Shown: one piece after another, positions 2,280-12,444 of the stretch
Position numbering within the stretch: position 1 is the stretch's first letter
How the letters are laid out: the number at the start of each line of letters is the position of its first letter
DNA from: Acidimicrobiia bacterium
GTDB taxonomy: Bacteria > Actinomycetota > Acidimicrobiia > IMCC26256 > JAOSJL01
NCBI GenBank assembly: GCA_027494115.1
Contig: JAOSJL010000001.1
Location: 1,451,926-1,515,925 of the forward strand
Direction: 5' to 3'
Length of the DNA stretch: 64,000 nt
The notes under the pieces: model-generated
Database searches by the model: none
What the model was told of the DNA's origin: nothing
What the model saw: the letters and a program-made list of their open reading frames with translations, nothing else
Position numbers and translations under genes: made by a program

Positions 2280-3134
2280 TCAGAGGATGTTGCCGCCGCT
2301 CGGATCGGTACCGTTCGAGCTGTCGGGCGGCGGGCCGCTCGGCTCGCTCGGCGTGACGGGTTCGGTCGGTTCGGTCGGTTCGCTGGGCGTGACGGGTTCG
2401 GTCGGCTCGGTCGGCGTGATCGGTTGCGTCGGCGTCGTGACCTGACCACCGGGCTCGGTCGGTTCTGTCGTCGTGGTGGTCGTCGTCGTGGTCGGCTCCT
2501 GCGGCGTACTCGGGTAGTAGGGCGGCAACAGCGGGTTCCCGCACTTGCAGCGCGTCACCGGCGTTTCGGGTTCGACTCCGGTCGTCGACGGAGCGGTCGC
2601 CTCGGTGGGTGGTTCGGTGACTTCGGTCGGCGGTTCGGTGACTTCGGTGGACGGCTCGTTCGGCTCGCCGTTCAGATCCTGGGGTGGCGGACCGGACATG
2701 AGCACAGCGGTTCCCTTTTCGAGCATCGACGGACGTGCGTAGGCGACGCCGTCGTGCAGGCCGTGGTTGGTGACCATCGTGTCGTTCTCGAGCACCTTGG
2801 GTTCGAGGGTCTCGACATACTCGGGTACCGACTCCTCGGGGATGTCGAGGACCGCTGCCCACGCGCGCATCGCCTCGGGTCGGTTCTGGAGCTCTTCGAC
2901 GAACTTGTCCTTGTCGCAGACCTGGTCGTCGTCGGTGTCGACGGGAGGCGTGAAGGCGTCGGGTCCGATCTCGCCGGAGGGCTCTTCGATGAAGCCGGCT
3001 TCCGTCGCCTGGTACGCACCGTCGCCGTCGCTACCACTGTCGGTGACCAAGGCCACGCCCATTCCGGCGGCGGCCACGATTCCTACGGCACCGACGATGA
3101 ACCCTGCCATTGCCTGTTGCCTGGGACTGGCCAT
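2280..3134 (-). CDS. membrane-anchored DUF6777-like protein with Thr/Glu/Pro-rich tail
   Basis: N-terminal TM; 'CDKDKFVEELQNRPEAMRAWAAVL', 'NDTMVTNHGLHDGVAYARPSMLEKGTAVL', 'RCKCGNPLLPP' resemble DUF6777. Confidence 0.65.
   Translation of the reverse strand: MASPRQQAMAGFIVGAVGIVAAAGMGVALVTDSGSDGDGAYQATEAGFIEEPSGEIGPDAFTPPVDTDDDQVCDKDKFVEELQNRPEAMRAWAAVLDIPEESVPEYVETLEPKVLENDTMVTNHGLHDGVAYARPSMLEKGTAVLMSGPPPQDLNGEPNEPSTEVTEPPTEVTEPPTEATAPSTTGVEPETPVTRCKCGNPLLPPYYPSTPQEPTTTTTTTTTEPTEPGGQVTTPTQPITPTEPTEPVTPSEPTEPTEPVTPSEPSGPPPDSSNGTDPSGGNIL
2340..2450 (-). repeat. in-frame TEP/SEP low-complexity repeat
   Basis: Encodes PTQPITPTEPTEPVTPSEPTEPTEPVTPSEP; DNA-level GGTTCGGTCGGTTCGGTCGGTTCG repeats. 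Confidence 0.7.
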
Positions 3135-3251: not shown

Positions 3252-3998
3252 TCAGGCGCGGACCAGGCCGGCGGCCCGCTCGACGAACGACGTGAAGAGC
3301 CGCTGCTGGTCGGCATCGGCGGCTGCGGTGTCCTCGGGATGCCACTGCACACCCACGATCCATCCGTCGTCGAGCTCGAGGCCCTCGACGATCCCGTCCT
3401 CGGCCCATGCCACGGGCCGAAGGCCCTCACCGAGGCGGTCGAGCGCCTGGTGATGATGCGAGTGACACGTGGGAGTGAGGACACCCACGGCGGCCGCCAG
3501 CTTCGACCCCGCCTCGATACGGACGTCGTGCATGGCACCACCCACATGGGGGACGCCGTGGTTGATCAGCCCGTCACGCCCGGTGATGTGCTGGTCGAGC
3601 GACCCTCCGAGTGCCACGTTGAGAACCTGGATTCCGCGGCAGATCGCGAGCGTGGGCACCTCGTGCTCGATGGCGGCGCGGATCAGGGCGAGCTCGAACG
3701 TGTCGGCGTCGGCATCGACGGGGAGGAGCTCCGGATGGGGCTCCTGGCCGTATCGGGCGGGGTCGAGGTCGTCGCCACCGGTGAGGAGGAGGCCGTCGAA
3801 ACGCTCCAGCACCTCGGCTGCATCGACTCCTGCCGCATCGCCGGTGTCGAGGGGGACGGGAAGGAGCAGCGCGCCCGTGGCCCCCGCCCGTTGCAGTGCC
3901 TCCAGGTAGTAGGTGGGCGTCGCGCACGCCGGTTCCCGCCAACCCTCGATCTTTCCAATAGGGAGCCGCCTCCCGGTGACGGCGATGAGTGGGCGCAT
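3252..3998 (-). CDS. gamma-glutamyl-gamma-aminobutyrate hydrolase family protein (peptidase C26, PuuD-like)
   Basis: MRPLIAVTGRR...LLLTGGDDLDPARYG...AICRGIQVLNVALGGSLDQ...GVQWHPE. Confidence 0.9.
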   Translation of the reverse strand: MRPLIAVTGRRLPIGKIEGWREPACATPTYYLEALQRAGATGALLLPVPLDTGDAAGVDAAEVLERFDGLLLTGGDDLDPARYGQEPHPELLPVDADADTFELALIRAAIEHEVPTLAICRGIQVLNVALGGSLDQHITGRDGLINHGVPHVGGAMHDVRIEAGSKLAAAVGVLTPTCHSHHHQALDRLGEGLRPVAWAEDGIVEGLELDDGWIVGVQWHPEDTAAADADQQRLFTSFVERAAGLVRA

Positions 3999-4012
3999 CG
4001 CGTCGGTGTCCC

Positions 4013-5380
4013 TCACATCCGTTCGAAGTAGCGGCCGAGCTCCCAGTCGGTGACCGCCCGGTTGGAGGCGGCCCACTCCTGGCGGGCCGTGTTCACGAGG
4101 TGATGGTGCACGTCGTCACCGAAGGCCGCGACGGCCATCTCACTCCCCGCGAACTCGTCGGCCGCCACAGCCAGCGTCGTCGGGAGCCGAGCCACGTCGG
4201 TCGCCTCGTAGGCGTTGCCCTCGAACGCGGAGCCGGGCTCGATCTCGTTCTCGATCCCGTGCAGACCGGCGGCGATCGTGGCCGCGAACGCGAGATAGGG
4301 ATTGCAGTCAGCGCCCGGAATGCGCGACTCGATCCTGAACGACGGTCCGTGACCCACGGTGCGGTACCCGCAGGTTCGGTTGTCGCGCGCCCACACGATG
4401 GCCGTCGGCGCCCACGAGTCGGGCTGGAACCGCTTGTAGGAGTTCACGTACGGGGCGTACATCCAGGTGAGCTCGCGTGTGGTCGCGAGCAGCCCACCCA
4501 GGTAGTGACGGTACGGCTCGCTCATGTGGTCGGGCGCGTCGTCGTCCCACGTCAGCGATCGCTCACGCGTCGCGTCCCACAGGCTCGAGTGCACGTGGCA
4601 CGAGGATCCGCCCTCGGCCATCGACCACTTCGCCATGAAGCTGATGGCACGGTCGTTGAGTGCCGCGATCTCCTTCGCTCCGTTCTTGTAGATGGTGTGG
4701 CGGTCGGCCATCTCGAGAGCGCCCGCATACACCAGGTTGATCTCGTGCTGGCCGCGTCCCGCTTCGCCTTTCGAGAACTCGACGGGTACGCCGGCGCCGT
4801 CCATGCCGTTGCGGATCTGGCGGATCAGGTACTCGTCCTTCGTGGTCTGGAGGATGTGGTAGTCCTCGATGTAGCTCGCGTGAGGCGTGAGGCCCGAGTA
4901 GCCCTTCGCTGCAGCCTCCTCGTAGGACTCCTCGAAGAGGTAGAACTCGAGTTCGGACCCAATCTTGACCGTGAAACCGTGCTCCTGCGCACGCTCGATC
5001 TGTCGCCGGAGGATCCTGCGGGGTGACACCTCGATCGGCCCGGCGCCGTCCTCGTCGACCAGGTCGCAGAGCACGAGCGCCGTCTTCTCCAACCACGGGA
5101 TCGTCCGGAGCGTCGCGAGATCGGGTACCGCCTTGCAGTCGCCGTATCCCGTGTCCCAACTCGTGAACCGGTATCCGGGGAGTGGTGTCATCTCCACGTC
5201 GACGGCGAGGAGGTAGTCGCAGGCGTGGATCCCGCCGTCGCCGCCGAGCACCTCGTCGAGGAAGAAGTGCCCCGTGACCCGTTTGCCCATGAGCCGGCCC
5301 TGAAGGTCGGGGAACGCCACCAGCACCGTGTCGATGTCACCCGAGCGGATGAGCTCTGAGCACTGCTCGACATCCAACAT
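4013..5380 (-). CDS. glutamine synthetase family protein, GlnA4 / gamma-glutamyl-amine ligase type
   Basis: 455 aa; GSELEFYLFEE, EFSKGEAGRGQHEINLVYAGALEMADRH, FMAKWSMAEGGSSCHVHSSLWD, NPYLAFAATIAAGLHGI. Confidence 0.93.
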   Translation of the reverse strand: MLDVEQCSELIRSGDIDTVLVAFPDLQGRLMGKRVTGHFFLDEVLGGDGGIHACDYLLAVDVEMTPLPGYRFTSWDTGYGDCKAVPDLATLRTIPWLEKTALVLCDLVDEDGAGPIEVSPRRILRRQIERAQEHGFTVKIGSELEFYLFEESYEEAAAKGYSGLTPHASYIEDYHILQTTKDEYLIRQIRNGMDGAGVPVEFSKGEAGRGQHEINLVYAGALEMADRHTIYKNGAKEIAALNDRAISFMAKWSMAEGGSSCHVHSSLWDATRERSLTWDDDAPDHMSEPYRHYLGGLLATTRELTWMYAPYVNSYKRFQPDSWAPTAIVWARDNRTCGYRTVGHGPSFRIESRIPGADCNPYLAFAATIAAGLHGIENEIEPGSAFEGNAYEATDVARLPTTLAVAADEFAGSEMAVAAFGDDVHHHLVNTARQEWAASNRAVTDWELGRYFERM

Positions 5381-5393
5381 CGGCAGTCGCTCC

Positions 5394-6169
5394 CTATTCC
5401 GGGGTCGTGTACGCAGCGGTGATGCCGCCGTCGGCGACGAGCGCGGCGCCGGTCATGAGCGACGACTCGTCCGACGCCAGCCACAGTGCGGCCCGTGCGA
5501 TCTCGTCGGCCCGCCCGAGGCGCCCGATCGGGATGTGGGTGAGACGACGTTCGCGCCGCGCAGGGTCGGCCATGAGTTCGGTCAGCAGTGGTGTTTCGAT
5601 CGGGCCGGGACAGAGCGCGTTGGCTCGAATTCCGCGTCGTGCGTACTCGACCGCCACCTCGCGGGTCATCGAGAGCACACCGCCCTTGCTCGCGGTGTAG
5701 GCGATCTGGGGCGTGGCCGCTCCCATCAGCGCGACGAACGAGGCCGTGTTGACGATCGCGCCGCCGCCCGAATCGAGGAGTGCCGGAATCCCGTACTTGC
5801 AGCCGAGCCACACACCCTTGAGGTTGACCGCGATCACCTTGTCCCAGGTGCCCTCGGGAGTTTCCACCGTTCCGCCGTCGTCGGCGGGGAAGATCCCGCG
5901 TTGTTGCACAACACGTGGAGACCGCCGTAGGTGTCGACCGCGAAGCGCACCATGGTTTCGACCTGGGCAGCGTCGGATACATCCACACCGACGAAGGCTG
6001 CGTCTCCGCCGGCTGCCTCGATCTCGTCGACCGTTGTCCGTCCGGCCTCTTCGGCGGCATCGGCGACGACTACCCGGGCACCCTCTTCGGCGAAGAGCTT
6101 CGCCATCGTGCCTCCGATGCCTCCCCCGGCACCCGTGACGATCGCCACCTTGTCGTCGAGCCGTCCCAT
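5394..6169 (-). CDS. SDR family oxidoreductase (frame interrupted near 5896)
   Basis: N part 5834-6169 (VTGAGGGIGG...LHVLCNNAG) joins C part 5394-5909 (IFPADDGG...YTASKGGVLSMTREVAVEYARRGIRANALCPGPIETPL); adding one G to the GGG run (CCC at 5895-5897 on +) restores one frame. Confidence 0.85.
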
Positions 6170-6209: not shown

Positions 6210-7020
6210 TCAGCGCCTCGCGCGGGCTCGGCGCACCGTACGGTCGAATCCCATCGCGAACGCCTCGGGCACCAGGCCCGCGGTTCTCGCCAGCAAACGG
6301 GTCCGCCAGTCGGGCGCGATCGAGAACGTCTCACGTTCGATGCCGCGCAGGATGGCGCGGGCGACCTGGTCGGCGGTGATCGGCTTGATCGTTCCCGAGA
6401 TTGCCTTCGTCTCCTCCGGCTTGAAGGGCTCCTCGTCGGCGAGCATCGGGGTGTCGACGTCGGGCGGGTACACGCAGCCCACGTGGACTGCGTGAGGAGC
6501 CAGTTCACCGCGCAGGGATTCGAGCAGGCCCCGCACAGCGAACTTCGTCGGTGCGTAGGCGGTGAAGCCGAACACGCCGATCAGGCCCGCCGCAGAGGAC
6601 ACCCCGACGACGCTCCCGCTTCCGCGCTCCACCATCGACGGCACCACCGCCCGGATCGCGTGGAGCGTCCCGGAAGTAGTTGACTTCCATGAGCCGGCGG
6701 AACGTGGCGTCGTCGAGCTGCTCGAAGTGACCGGGGCGGGACGCTCCCGCAGACGTGACGAGGATGTCGCACGGACCCATCTCGGTGATCAGGTCGCTGA
6801 TTGCGGCGCGCAGCGCGTCCGGGTCGGCGACGTCGGCGGTTGCGAGGGCGACGCTGCCTTCCGTTGCCTCCAGATCGGCGGCGGCCGCTTCCAGCTGTTC
6901 ACGACGCCGTGCGATCAGGGAGACACGGGCGCCGCGCGTCACCAACAGCCGGGCTGTGGCGAGTCCGATACCGCTCGAACCCCCCGTCACGATCGCGTGC
7001 GCGCCCGCCACCTGCGCCAT
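6210..7020 (-). CDS. SDR oxidoreductase of 3-ketodihydrosphingosine reductase (KDSR) type (frame interrupted near 6670)
   Basis: TGGSSGIG..., GHFEQLDDATFRRLMEVNYF + VPSMVERGSGSVVGVSSAAGLIGVFGFTAYAPTKFAVRGLLESLRGELAPHAVHVGCVYPPDVDTPMLADEEPFKPEETKAISG; the YPPD.DTP..A.E...KP.ET..IS signature is KDSR-like. Confidence 0.8.
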
Positions 7021-7025
7021 CCAGC

Positions 7026-8434
7026 TCAGACCTTGAAGAGCAGGTCGGTGTAGCGCTCGAGCAGCTCTTCGACGGTTCCGCGGGTGTCGAGGCGCTCGGC
7101 CATGCCGTACACAGGCGCCATCGCGCCGCTCGTGTCGGGTTCGCCCCGTGCTTCGGCGACCGACGCCTCCAGGTCGTCCACGAACCGCTCGGGGACACCG
7201 GCCTGCGTGTGACGGAGCGTCACGCAGATGTGTACAGCGGGTGGGAGCTGGAGACCGTTGAGGTTCCACCCCCGCTCGCTCATGTGGTCCATCACGCGGT
7301 AGATGTCGAGTGACTCCGAACGGAAGGCGATCACCCACAGCGGGTCGCCGATGACCTCCACGTCGGGGATCCGGTCGATGCCGTCCCGAATCGTTGCCGC
7401 CGCTCTCAGGATCTCGCGGGTCGCGGCGAGATAGCCGTCCTCACCGGTCGCGACCATCGCCGCCCAGCACTCGGCGGAGAGCGCGCCGGGTCGACTCCCC
7501 GCGATCGTCGGAGAGTAGTAGAGGCCGCCCGACCACTCGGCCGTACGGAAGTACTGGTGACGCCGGAGTTCACGGTCGCGGTACAGAACCACCGACGTGC
7601 CCTTGGCCGCGTAGCCGAACTTGTGGGTGTCGGCCGACATCGAGGTCACTCCCGGGAGCCGGAAGTCGAACGGCGGCACGTCGGCGCCGAGCTTCTCGGC
7701 CCACGGCAGCACGAACCCGCCCAGACAGGCGTCGGTGTGGAACCCGATCCCGCGTGAGAGCGCGAGCTCCGACAGCTCGTCGATCGGATCGACGAGACCG
7801 TGCGGGAAGTTCGGCGCCGATCCGACGATCGCGACGGTGTCGTCGGTGATCGCCGCCTCGGTGGCGGCCACATCCGCGCGGAAGTCGCTCCCGACGGGGA
7901 CGCGGGTCAGCCCGATGTCGAAGTAGCGGGATGCCTTGTCGAAGGCCGCATGCGCCGTCGACGGGACGACGATGTGCGGGGTCTCGATTCCGAGCTCCTG
8001 AGCGCGCGATCACGGTAGGAGAGCATCGCGAGGAGGATGCTCTCGGTGCCACCCGACGTCACCGTTCCGCAGACGCCCTCGGCCCCGGATGTTCCTCCAC
8101 CGAGCATCGCACCCGTCATCGCCGCGATCTCGGCTTCGTACTTGCTCCCACTCGGCCAGAGATCGGCGTGCAGCGGATTGACCTGCGAACTGAGCGCGTA
8201 CACCTCGTTGAGGTAGTCGATGTGGCTGTCGTCCCCGTGGTAGACGGCGCCCGACACATGGCCCCCCTGCCACGAGGCACGCTCGCGCTCCGCGAGCGCT
8301 CGCATTTCCTCGAGGATGTCGGCACGATCCCGCCCGTGATCAGGCAGCTTCGAGTACGTCGGGAACTCTTCACGGTAGGGCTTGAGTGAGCCCTCCAGGA
8401 CCTCCAGGACGACGTCCAGATCGCTCGCTTCCAT
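7026..8434 (-). CDS. sphingosine-1-phosphate lyase-like PLP-dependent enzyme (frame interrupted near 8003)
   Basis: [50 protein letters not shown]...[20 protein letters not shown] + [20 protein letters not shown]...[11 protein letters not shown]...[26 protein letters not shown]...[29 protein letters not shown]-lysine motif THKFGYA present. Confidence 0.9.
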
Positions 8435-8476
8435 CAGTGTTCTCCCGTGCTCGTGGTCGAAGAAGGTGCTGTGTGC

Positions 8477-10047
8477 TCAACGCCGATTGAGGCGCCGGTG
8501 GGTCTTGCGGTTCTGCTTGTAGAGGTTCGTGAACTCGTCGAAGAGCTCGTCGTAGAGCGCGTGGTGCCGTGCGTCGGGTCTGAACGTGGCGCGAATCGGG
8601 ACCCGGGCCGGGATGTCGTCGACGCTCAGGTGCCCGAGCGCCATCGCAGCCAGGAACGCAGCGCCGCGGACGTTGGCCTGGATGGGATCCTGGACCTGGC
8701 GGATCGTACGGCCCAGGACGTCGGCGTGGATCTGTGCCCACAGCGCCGAGTTGGCGCCGCCGCCGACGAAGTTGATCGGATCGAGCCGCCGCTTCGTGAG
8801 CTTCTCGACAGACTCGAGAAGCCAGCGCGAGTTGTAGGCCACACCTTCGAGAACCGCCCGCACGAGATGTGCGCGTGTCGTGCGTAGGGAGAGGTTGAAG
8901 AACGCACCTCGCACGTCGGCATCCTCCACCGGAGTGCGTTCTCCGTGGAGCCATGGTGTGAAGATGACCTTGTCACTCCCAGCCGGCGCCTGGGCGGCGA
9001 CGCGGTCGAACGCGGCGTAGGCGTCGTCGGGGCGATCTGTCGTGAGCTCGTCATCGGCGAAGAACACGTTGTCGCGCAGGAAGGTCAGGCACGCTCCGGC
9101 GCTCTCCTGTTCATCGGCCACGAGGTACCGGCCCGGGATGGCCGACGGGATGGTGGCGATGCTGTGCATCAGGTCGGTGCGCTTGTACGGCACGTGGCAC
9201 GTCAGCCACGACGACGTGCCGATGTAGAGGTGGCCCTCGAAATCGTCGACCGCACCCGAGCCGACAGCGGCGGAGTGCACGTCGCCGGTTCCGATCACGA
9301 CCTGCACGTCGGTGTCGAGACCCAGCTCGCGAGCCGCTTCATCGCTGATCGGACCGAGGATGCTGTTCGTGGGACGAAGATCGGGGAGTCGGCCGCGGTC
9401 GAGCTCCGACCACTCGATGAGCTGGTCGTCGTAGACGACGTTCGTGAGATCCCGGTTGTCGGTGACCCAGTGGGCGGTGATCGAGTCGTAGGACGCGGCC
9501 ATTCGACCGGTCAGACGAAAGCCGAGGTAGTCGACGGGCTCGAGGAACATCGCCGTCGCCTCGTAGACCTCGGGGCGTTCGTGCTTCAGGTAGAGAACGT
9601 GTGCCGTGGGATCCTTGCCCGCGTGTCCGGGAGCGCCCCCGTGAGCCGAATCCAGCGAGGGAGCCTGCGCACGTCGTAGCCCTGGATCGCAAACCTTGCT
9701 CCCGTGACCTGCGGGATGTACCGACTTCCACGCGTGTCCATCCAGATGACGGCGTTCGCCAGCGGTTTCCCCGCCCCATCCACCGCCACCGTGCCCGACC
9801 ACTGCGCGGTGAGGCCGACCGCCACGATGTGATCGACGGGGACCAGGTCCTGGTCGAGGAGGCGACGGGCCCCGGTGACGATCGCCTCCCACCACTCGAG
9901 AGGATCCTGTTCTGCGCCACCACCCGGGAAGAGCTCGAGGGTCGTTTCGACGAACTCGCAGCCGACGATGTCGCCGCCGGTCGAGACCAGCGCTACTTTC
10001 GGTCCACCCGTTCCGAGGTCGACAGCGAGGACGTACGTGCTGTTCAC
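8477..10047 (-). CDS. FGGY-family carbohydrate kinase (xylulokinase-like; frame interrupted at 9636-9640)
   Basis: MNSTYVLAVDLGTGGPKVALV... joins GKDPTAHVLYLKHERPEVYEA...VIGTGDVHSAAVGSGAV...FTPWLHGERTPVEDADVRGAFFNLSLRTTRAHLVRAVLEGVAYNSRWLLE...FVGGGANSALWAQIHADVLGR. Confidence 0.9.
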
Positions 10048-10828: not shown

Positions 10829-12250
10829 CTATGACTGGTCGGCGCTGCCGAGCGCCAGGACCTCGTCGAAGCTCTCGGAGAGGCACTCGGCGAGCACGTC
10901 GGGATCGGGCACGGCCGCCGCGTCGCAGTTCACACCGATGCAACACGTCTCGCCGTGCGACATGAGGGTGAGGTTGACGGCCGCGCCTTCCGTGGGGCCG
11001 AAGGCGTACCAGCGAAGGACTTCTGCGCCGGCGGTGTAGCAGCGCGACGGCAGTCCGGGCACGTTGCTCGCGAGGAAGTCGACGTGTTCGAACATGCCCG
11101 CGAACACGAGCGTCATCGCGCGCTCGGGGAGCCTGTTCAGGAGACCTGCGATCGCGGGTGTGACCGCGACGGCGGGCTCGTTCTGTGTGCGCGTGCTGAC
11201 CTCGCCGATTCGGATCATGCGCGCCACCGGATCGGGTTCATCGGTGGGGACGAGCATGCGCAGTGTCGTGAGACGGTTCCCGCCCAGCAGCTCGTCGTCG
11301 CCGCGCAGGTTCATGGGCATCGTCATCCGCAGCTCCGGCACCGGGGGTCCGTGACGCCGGTGATAGCGGTCGAATCCGCCGCAGATCGCCGCTACGTAGG
11401 CGTCGTTGAGGGAGGCGTCGGCGACCTTGGCGGCGCGGCGGAGGTCGTCGAGCGGCACCTCGAGGGCGAAGTAGCGCCAGCGTGTGCTGCGCGACGTCAT
11501 GATCGGCGAGCACGTCCGCAGTGCAGGGCTGAGGAGCCGACCTGCCGACGCGACGAGTCGTCCCGTGTCGACGACGACACGCACGGGGTTCCGGAGGCTC
11601 GCGGCCACCCGCCCGATGAGGCCGGGAGCGTGCACCGTCGTGTCGACGAGCGCGTGCGCCGAGCGCACGAGTGCGTCCCTTTGGAATTCGACCAGGCCGA
11701 AATGCTCTTCGGCGGGTTTTTCGGGCATCGGATCTTCTTCGGCAGGGTGGCGGTCCTGGTCGACGGTCAGGAGCGCGAGCTGCATGCCGCCCACACCGTC
11801 GACCATCGAGTGGTGCACCTTCTGGACGAAGGCGGCGCGGCCGTCCTCCAGCCCTTCGAACAGCGTGTACTCCCACAGCGGACGGTGGTGGTCGAGCCCG
11901 GACATGGCGGACGCCTGTGCGAAGTCGAGCACCGTCCGGAAATCGCCGGGCGGCGGTGCCGAGACGCGGCGCAGGTGGTACGCGAGATCGAAGTCGGGGT
12001 CGGTCTCGTAGCGCGGTGGGCCGAGAACCCGGGGTGGCTCCACGACACGCTGCCGGAGGCGGGGCAGTAGGCGTGTCAGCCGCTCGGCCCGGTCGAGGAT
12101 CCGGTCCCAGTCGGGGCTCTGGTCGAGCAGCATGATCGCCGTGACCGTGCTGCGCAGCTTGGGGTCGCGCTCCATGTTCCAGAGGAGCGCATCCGTGTCG
12201 GTCATCCGGTCCGAGAACCCGAGCTCCTCGGTGGTCGGCCGATGCGCCAT
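10829..12250 (-). CDS. wax ester synthase/diacylglycerol acyltransferase (WS/DGAT) family O-acyltransferase
   Basis: HHSMVDGVGG active-site motif, MTDTDALLWNMERDPKLRSTVTAIMLLD N-terminus; AAGGAG Shine-Dalgarno 5 nt upstream of the ATG. Confidence 0.93.
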   Translation of the reverse strand: MAHRPTTEELGFSDRMTDTDALLWNMERDPKLRSTVTAIMLLDQSPDWDRILDRAERLTRLLPRLRQRVVEPPRVLGPPRYETDPDFDLAYHLRRVSAPPPGDFRTVLDFAQASAMSGLDHHRPLWEYTLFEGLEDGRAAFVQKVHHSMVDGVGGMQLALLTVDQDRHPAEEDPMPEKPAEEHFGLVEFQRDALVRSAHALVDTTVHAPGLIGRVAASLRNPVRVVVDTGRLVASAGRLLSPALRTCSPIMTSRSTRWRYFALEVPLDDLRRAAKVADASLNDAYVAAICGGFDRYHRRHGPPVPELRMTMPMNLRGDDELLGGNRLTTLRMLVPTDEPDPVARMIRIGEVSTRTQNEPAVAVTPAIAGLLNRLPERAMTLVFAGMFEHVDFLASNVPGLPSRCYTAGAEVLRWYAFGPTEGAAVNLTLMSHGETCCIGVNCDAAAVPDPDVLAECLSESFDEVLALGSADQS

Positions 12251-12444
12251 CTCCACTCCTTCGACGCGCCACGACTTCCCTCACGACTCTACGGTGCGGG
12301 CACCGTTCGGACCAGAGCCGTTGGGCCCGAGTCGAGGTGAACGGGGACATATGGACCTTCGAGCGGCTCCTGTGTGGTCACCGCCGCGCCGCGAGCTCGG
12401 GGATACCGTCCTTGTTCGCGACCTGACCGGGAGGCCCGATCATC

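Follow-up and report, generated by a model that had tools for sequence, protein, structure and literature searches.

A GlnA4-type ligase, predicted to act on ethanolamine, and a C26 hydrolase in an apparent operon with an FGGY kinase and an S1P-lyase homologue in an Acidimicrobiia bacterium

Introduction

The described systems closest to the locus studied here are the glnA4 cluster of Streptomyces coelicolor, the ethanolamine operon of Phaeobacter and Chromohalobacter, the Puu pathway of E. coli and the lyase StSPL of Symbiobacterium thermophilum, which degrades S1P by cleaving it (PMC3148216). For the phosphorylation of sphingoid bases in bacteria, the SphK type is the only kinase that we found in the literature read (PMC9045371). 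The module formed by a ligase, an SDR and a C26 hydrolase is already known, and two genes in the 64,000-nucleotide stretch of Acidimicrobiia DNA analysed here (the window) resemble steps of a route described in bacteria, by which nitrogen is obtained from ethanolamine, a lipid head group. What sets the window apart is that these presumed ethanolamine genes lie in an apparent operon behind a lyase and a sugar-kinase-like gene that could yield ethanolamine.

Results

Six genes follow each other on the same strand, in the order FGGY kinase, S1P lyase, SDR, SDR, ligase, C26:

8477-10047, minus strand: FGGY-family kinase (FGGY_N and FGGY_C), constant partner of the lyase; frameshift near 9650
7026-8434, minus strand: S1P-lyase homologue (StSPL identity, PLP lysine motif); frameshift near 8000
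6210-7020, minus strand: first SDR, weakly 3-ketodihydrosphingosine-reductase-like (best PDB match TSC10); frameshift near 6675
5394-6169, minus strand: second SDR (adh_short), predicted gamma-glutamylethanolamide dehydrogenase; two frames, frameshift near 5890
4013-5380, minus strand: glutamine synthetase (GS)-like ligase, predicted GlnA4/ethanolamine gamma-glutamylase type, step 1 of the module (Gln-synt_C; 455 aa)
3252-4001, minus strand: C26 (class I amidotransferase-like) hydrolase, predicted gamma-glutamylglycine hydrolase (Peptidase_C26; 249 aa)

From the FGGY kinase to the C26 gene the intergenic gaps are about 43, 5, 40, 13 and 11 bp, and gaps of only 5-43 bp make it plausible that the run is a single operon. 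The assembly is a draft, 85.6% complete, in which the ligase and C26 ORFs are intact and the FGGY kinase, the lyase and both SDR genes each carry one frameshift. These four frameshifts are probably indel errors of the assembly, since core genes elsewhere in the genome (two other GS genes, an aldehyde dehydrogenase and the sole AOS-family gene) are split alike, which also makes decay of the operon unlikely. The original prediction had placed a ligase followed directly by a C26 hydrolase in the S1P-lyase operon, and the two genes were indeed found intact, adjacent and on the minus strand, at the end of the tight run. No phosphoethanolamine phosphatase, aldehyde dehydrogenase or permease is present among the operon genes. 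Upstream of the operon lies a wax ester synthase/diacylglycerol acyltransferase gene (10829-12256), and downstream a gene for a DUF6777 protein with a Thr/Pro/Glu-rich tail (2280-3134).

The ligase ORF (5380-4013) has no internal stop and matches Pfam Gln-synt_C at 7e-95. Its full-length matches among solved structures are 11zs, at 450 bits, and 5dm3, at 408 bits, and all other glutamine synthetases score at most 196 bits; we take 5dm3 to be the ligase encoded beside the ethanolamine-binding protein Csal_0678. Identity is 47% to 5dm3, 51-53% to Streptomyces-like and Mycobacterium-like GlnA4 and 27% to PuuA, and full-length comparison with 5dm3 and with the protein of the Paracoccus operon gives 47-48%. 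In a tree of 58 rows, the window ligase falls inside a clade of 33 rows (support 99/95) together with Streptomyces-like and Mycobacterium-like GlnA4, the Paracoccus, Thermomicrobium and Arthrobacter ligases, 5dm3 and 11zs; PuuA, GlnA3-like, GlnA1/2-type and other paralogues lie outside. The Streptomyces-like rows were named GlnA4 by synteny, their C26, ligase, ALDH and SDR genes being ordered as SCO1615, 1613, 1612 and 1611 (PMC6529630), and GlnA4 was located by alignment and synteny instead of by published absolute numbering, which is unusable for these rows, where start sites differ and loops vary in length. Placement against GlnA1, GlnA3, GlnA4 and PuuA, the check that had been proposed with the original prediction, thus puts the protein with GlnA4 and not with GlnA3 or PuuA.

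The active site points the same way. In the alignment, the window ligase has P, D and W in place of the ammonium-site residues D50, Y179 and E327, and the metal, glutamate and ATP residues E129, E131, E212, E220, H269, R321, R344, E357 and R359 are kept. Almost all of the 33-row clade has Asp at the Y179 position, including the GlnA4-like, Paracoccus and Thermomicrobium ligases and 5dm3 (11zs has Gly), and this Asp is absent from the PuuA (Val), GlnA and GlnA3-like rows. In GlnA4 itself, V189 or D186 has been placed there, depending on the model (PMC6529630). The flap residue is Trp in the window ligase and Phe in GlnA4 and 5dm3. The scores of the ligase also stay below the curated cut-offs for type I GS (TIGR00653, 227 bits against 429) and type III GS (TIGR03105, 237 against 470). 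PuuA, GlnA3 and true glutamine synthetase were ruled out as identities for the ligase by its clade, the missed cut-offs and the lost ammonium residues.

Gene neighbourhoods point towards an amino alcohol. Within 6.5 kb of 66 ligase loci, an SDR is found at 58 (a count that takes in paralogues), a C26 gene at 37 and an ALDH at 33. The most constant partner is the SDR; orthologues of 5394-6169 in relatives of the same order share 71-82% identity with it in the C-terminal part. In place of a PuuB-type amine oxidase stands an SDR, which would oxidise an alcohol, as expected for an amino alcohol substrate. Several loci carry recognisable versions of the module: GS-SDR-ethanolamine permease in Thermomicrobium, where the permease is annotated for ethanolamine and the ligase orthologue is 57% identical; permease-GS-C26-ALDH-SDR in Arthrobacter; C26/GS/ALDH/SDR in Streptomyces-like loci, as in the published glnA4 cluster (PMC6529630); and RpiR-amidohydrolase-TRAP-GS-ALDH-Fe-ADH in Paracoccus, the layout of the Phaeobacter ethanolamine operon that is induced on phosphorylethanolamine (PMC10132767). 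Across three loci (L126, L127 and L128) the presumed ethanolamine route shows non-orthologous replacement at three steps: an SDR or an iron alcohol dehydrogenase takes the oxidation step, a C26 enzyme or an N-formylglutamate amidohydrolase the hydrolysis, and an APC or a TRAP system the transport. EutB, the canonical ethanolamine ammonia-lyase, was not found in the 85.6% complete genome assembly. Taken together, phylogeny, active-site residues and gene neighbourhoods support the original proposal of a GlnA4-type ligase acting on ethanolamine, and we consider it very likely that the window enzyme is of this predicted type.

The flap Trp in place of Phe could mean that the ligase takes another small monoamine or amino alcohol (e.g. 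alaninol or isopropylamine, as an IpuC-like enzyme) and that the cluster degrades that compound. Moreover, ligases of a sister clade adjoin genes for P450 or GMC oxidoreductases, so that amine use in the family at large is diverse; in Streptomyces canus and Aminobacter plasmids, GS-like ligases are followed directly by cytochrome P450 genes (L131 6977-9645 and L130 6980-9580). We nevertheless regard another amine as improbable for the window ligase, which retains the Asp of the ethanolamine enzymes and has a 57% identical orthologue beside the ethanolamine-annotated permease.

The C26 gene (4001-3252, counted from an ATG, with an alternative GTG start possible at 4076) matches Peptidase_C26 at 6e-55 and in most relatives of the same order comes immediately after the GS-like ligase. 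Its Cys (ICRGIQ) and His/Glu (QWHPED) motifs are conserved in the alignments, and it is probably a gamma-glutamylglycine hydrolase. The protein is a distant relative of PuuD (6vtv, 3e-20), and the analogy with PuuA and PuuD suggests a reading in which the cluster serves ordinary polyamine catabolism of the Puu type, with glutamylation, oxidation and hydrolysis of putrescine. The original prediction had listed this, co-transcribed with the lyase by chance, as its alternative. It now seems very improbable, because both enzymes miss the relevant cut-offs widely (204 bits against 650 for the ligase with the gamma-glutamylputrescine synthetase model NF045547; 81 against 266 for the C26 protein with NF008471, the PuuD gamma-glutamyl-GABA hydrolase), PuuA and GlnA3-like rows fall outside the ligase clade, and the stable partner is an SDR, which would oxidise an alcohol, with no PuuB-type oxidase present.

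Upstream in the operon, the lyase shares 59% identity with Symbiobacterium StSPL across 280 residues, has 3mad as its best PDB match (E 5e-111) and conserves the PLP lysine motif SADTHK; homology to assayed lyases and this lysine mark it as a predicted S1P-lyase homologue. The same genome holds a further S1P-lyase-like gene, less closely related (49% identity), at C1:2133135-2133845. In all 20 class loci examined, the lyase gene has an FGGY kinase gene beside it, upstream in 19 and downstream in one (L124), and the two are also adjacent in most of the 39 named loci that span several phyla. The pair was seen in the window (7026-10047), in L106-L125 and in L137-L175, with the gene order reversed in L124 and L168, and the phyla that carry it are Chloroflexota, Acidobacteriota, Actinomycetota, Bacillota, Thermodesulfobacteriota, Myxococcota and Spirochaetota. 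FGGY kinase and S1P lyase form a two-gene unit of their own, conserved in at least seven phyla, and StSPL itself falls within the FGGY-linked lyase clade. Among the loci compared, no other conserved neighbour hinted at the substrate of the pair. The literature searched, which left most subscription journals outside its scope, yielded no description of the FGGY kinase-S1P lyase pairing, and within that literature it appears to be undescribed.

The window kinase was also considered as a known SphK-type sphingoid-base kinase, and this was rejected, as it has no SphK-like fold and belongs to the FGGY sugar-kinase family only. To our knowledge, characterised FGGY kinases use small polyols and sugars as substrates. 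The first SDR has TSC10 (8jat, 5.6e-12, C-terminal piece) as the best of 217 PDB matches, by a small margin over other SDRs; the match hints at sphingoid metabolism. Only one relative (G212/L284) has a homologue of this SDR beside a lyase. Sphingolipid synthesis in this genome was considered and set aside: a single AOS-family gene was found, and no clear serine palmitoyltransferase.

Most relatives of the same order or class have the ligase module with no lyase nearby, and we accordingly rejected the view that the ligase is regularly accompanied by the lyase. On the other hand, the FGGY-lyase pair and a gamma-glutamyl-aminoalcohol module occur together in at least four lineages: the window, G114 (L124; lyase-kinase-ligase-SDR-ALDH), a Chloroflexi locus (L138; kinase-lyase-ligase-SDR) and G035 (L114), where the module (ligase, Fe-ADH, C26, ALDH) is divergent from the pair. 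In L138 and L114 the ligases belong to the sister clade and have Cys and Gly instead of the Asp, which weakens the claim of ethanolamine use there; their amine may differ. About 14 class genomes have both gene sets, and the sets lie within 10 kb in at least three of them, against about 0.1 expected at random placement in 3 Mb, by a hand count in which the window, which prompted the question, is one of the three and two are independent.

These distributions bear on a reading in which ligase, SDR and C26 are a free-standing ethanolamine-scavenging set, for glycerophospholipid head groups or external ethanolamine, and the FGGY-lyase pair lies upstream by chance with a role of its own. Nearly all relatives keep the triad stably and without the lyase, permease-linked versions of the triad probably import external ethanolamine, and most of the 14 or so class genomes keep the sets apart. 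Such independence would leave the tight same-strand run, the excess of co-located sets in the class and the additional Chloroflexi case as coincidences, and we judge it rather unlikely. The original prediction had proposed that the ligase and the hydrolase may handle the amine product of the lyase. The evidence makes this link plausible but circumstantial: the pair joins such modules in other lineages, but the modules of most relatives lack the lyase, and the operon lacks a phosphatase and an aldehyde dehydrogenase. On balance, functional coupling of lyase and ligase module seems slightly better supported than its absence. The combined operon seems to be undescribed.

Discussion

From the observed gene order, families, clades and residues, we infer the reactions in this organism as follows, together with what the kinase acts on, the phosphatase and the passage of product from lyase to ligase. 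The substrate phosphorylated by the FGGY kinase would be a 2-amino-1,3-diol, either a sphingoid base or a shorter compound of that kind, and the lyase would split the phosphorylated product into an aldehyde and phosphoethanolamine, from which an unlinked phosphatase would provide ethanolamine. The ligase would then join glutamate and ethanolamine at the expense of ATP, the SDR at 5394-6169 would oxidise the alcohol of gamma-glutamylethanolamide, an aldehyde dehydrogenase encoded elsewhere would give gamma-glutamylglycine, and the C26 enzyme could free glutamate and glycine. With moderate confidence, we favour an ethanolamine module placed behind the FGGY kinase-S1P lyase pair, the lyase feeding the ligase through ethanolamine. 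More speculatively, we hypothesise that FGGY kinases paired with S1P lyases might form a kinase class, so far unrecognised, that acts on sphingoid bases (or short 2-amino-1,3-diols), with the pair wired in some lineages to the gamma-glutamyl-ethanolamine route, in a complete bacterial path from sphingoid base to glutamate and glycine. If the link is true, bacteria would be able to draw nitrogen from sphingoid bases by way of gamma-glutamyl-ethanolamine, and the FGGY kinase would be a concrete candidate for making the lyase substrate in bacteria with S1P lyases.

The locus shares parts with each of the known systems. With the Streptomyces coelicolor cluster SCO1611-1615 (PMC6529630) it has in common the ligase clade, the SDR and C26 partners, the Asp at the Y179 position and the loss of the ammonium residues, but it is without the adjoining aldehyde dehydrogenase, regulator and permease, has Trp and not Phe in the flap, and is linked to FGGY-lyase genes. 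The Phaeobacter/Chromohalobacter ethanolamine operon (PMC10132767; PDB 5dm3) has a homologous ligase of the same clade, together with an iron alcohol dehydrogenase, an N-formylglutamate-amidohydrolase-type enzyme and a TRAP transporter, whereas the window has an SDR and a C26 hydrolase. The E. coli Puu pathway follows the same logic of glutamylation, oxidation and C26 hydrolysis, but the window ligase, at 27% identity, belongs to another clade, and an SDR stands in place of the amine oxidase PuuB. Finally, the window lyase resembles StSPL of Symbiobacterium thermophilum in its 59% identity, its PLP lysine motif and its FGGY-linked clade, and differs from it in sitting in an apparent ethanolamine operon, with its ORF split in the assembly.
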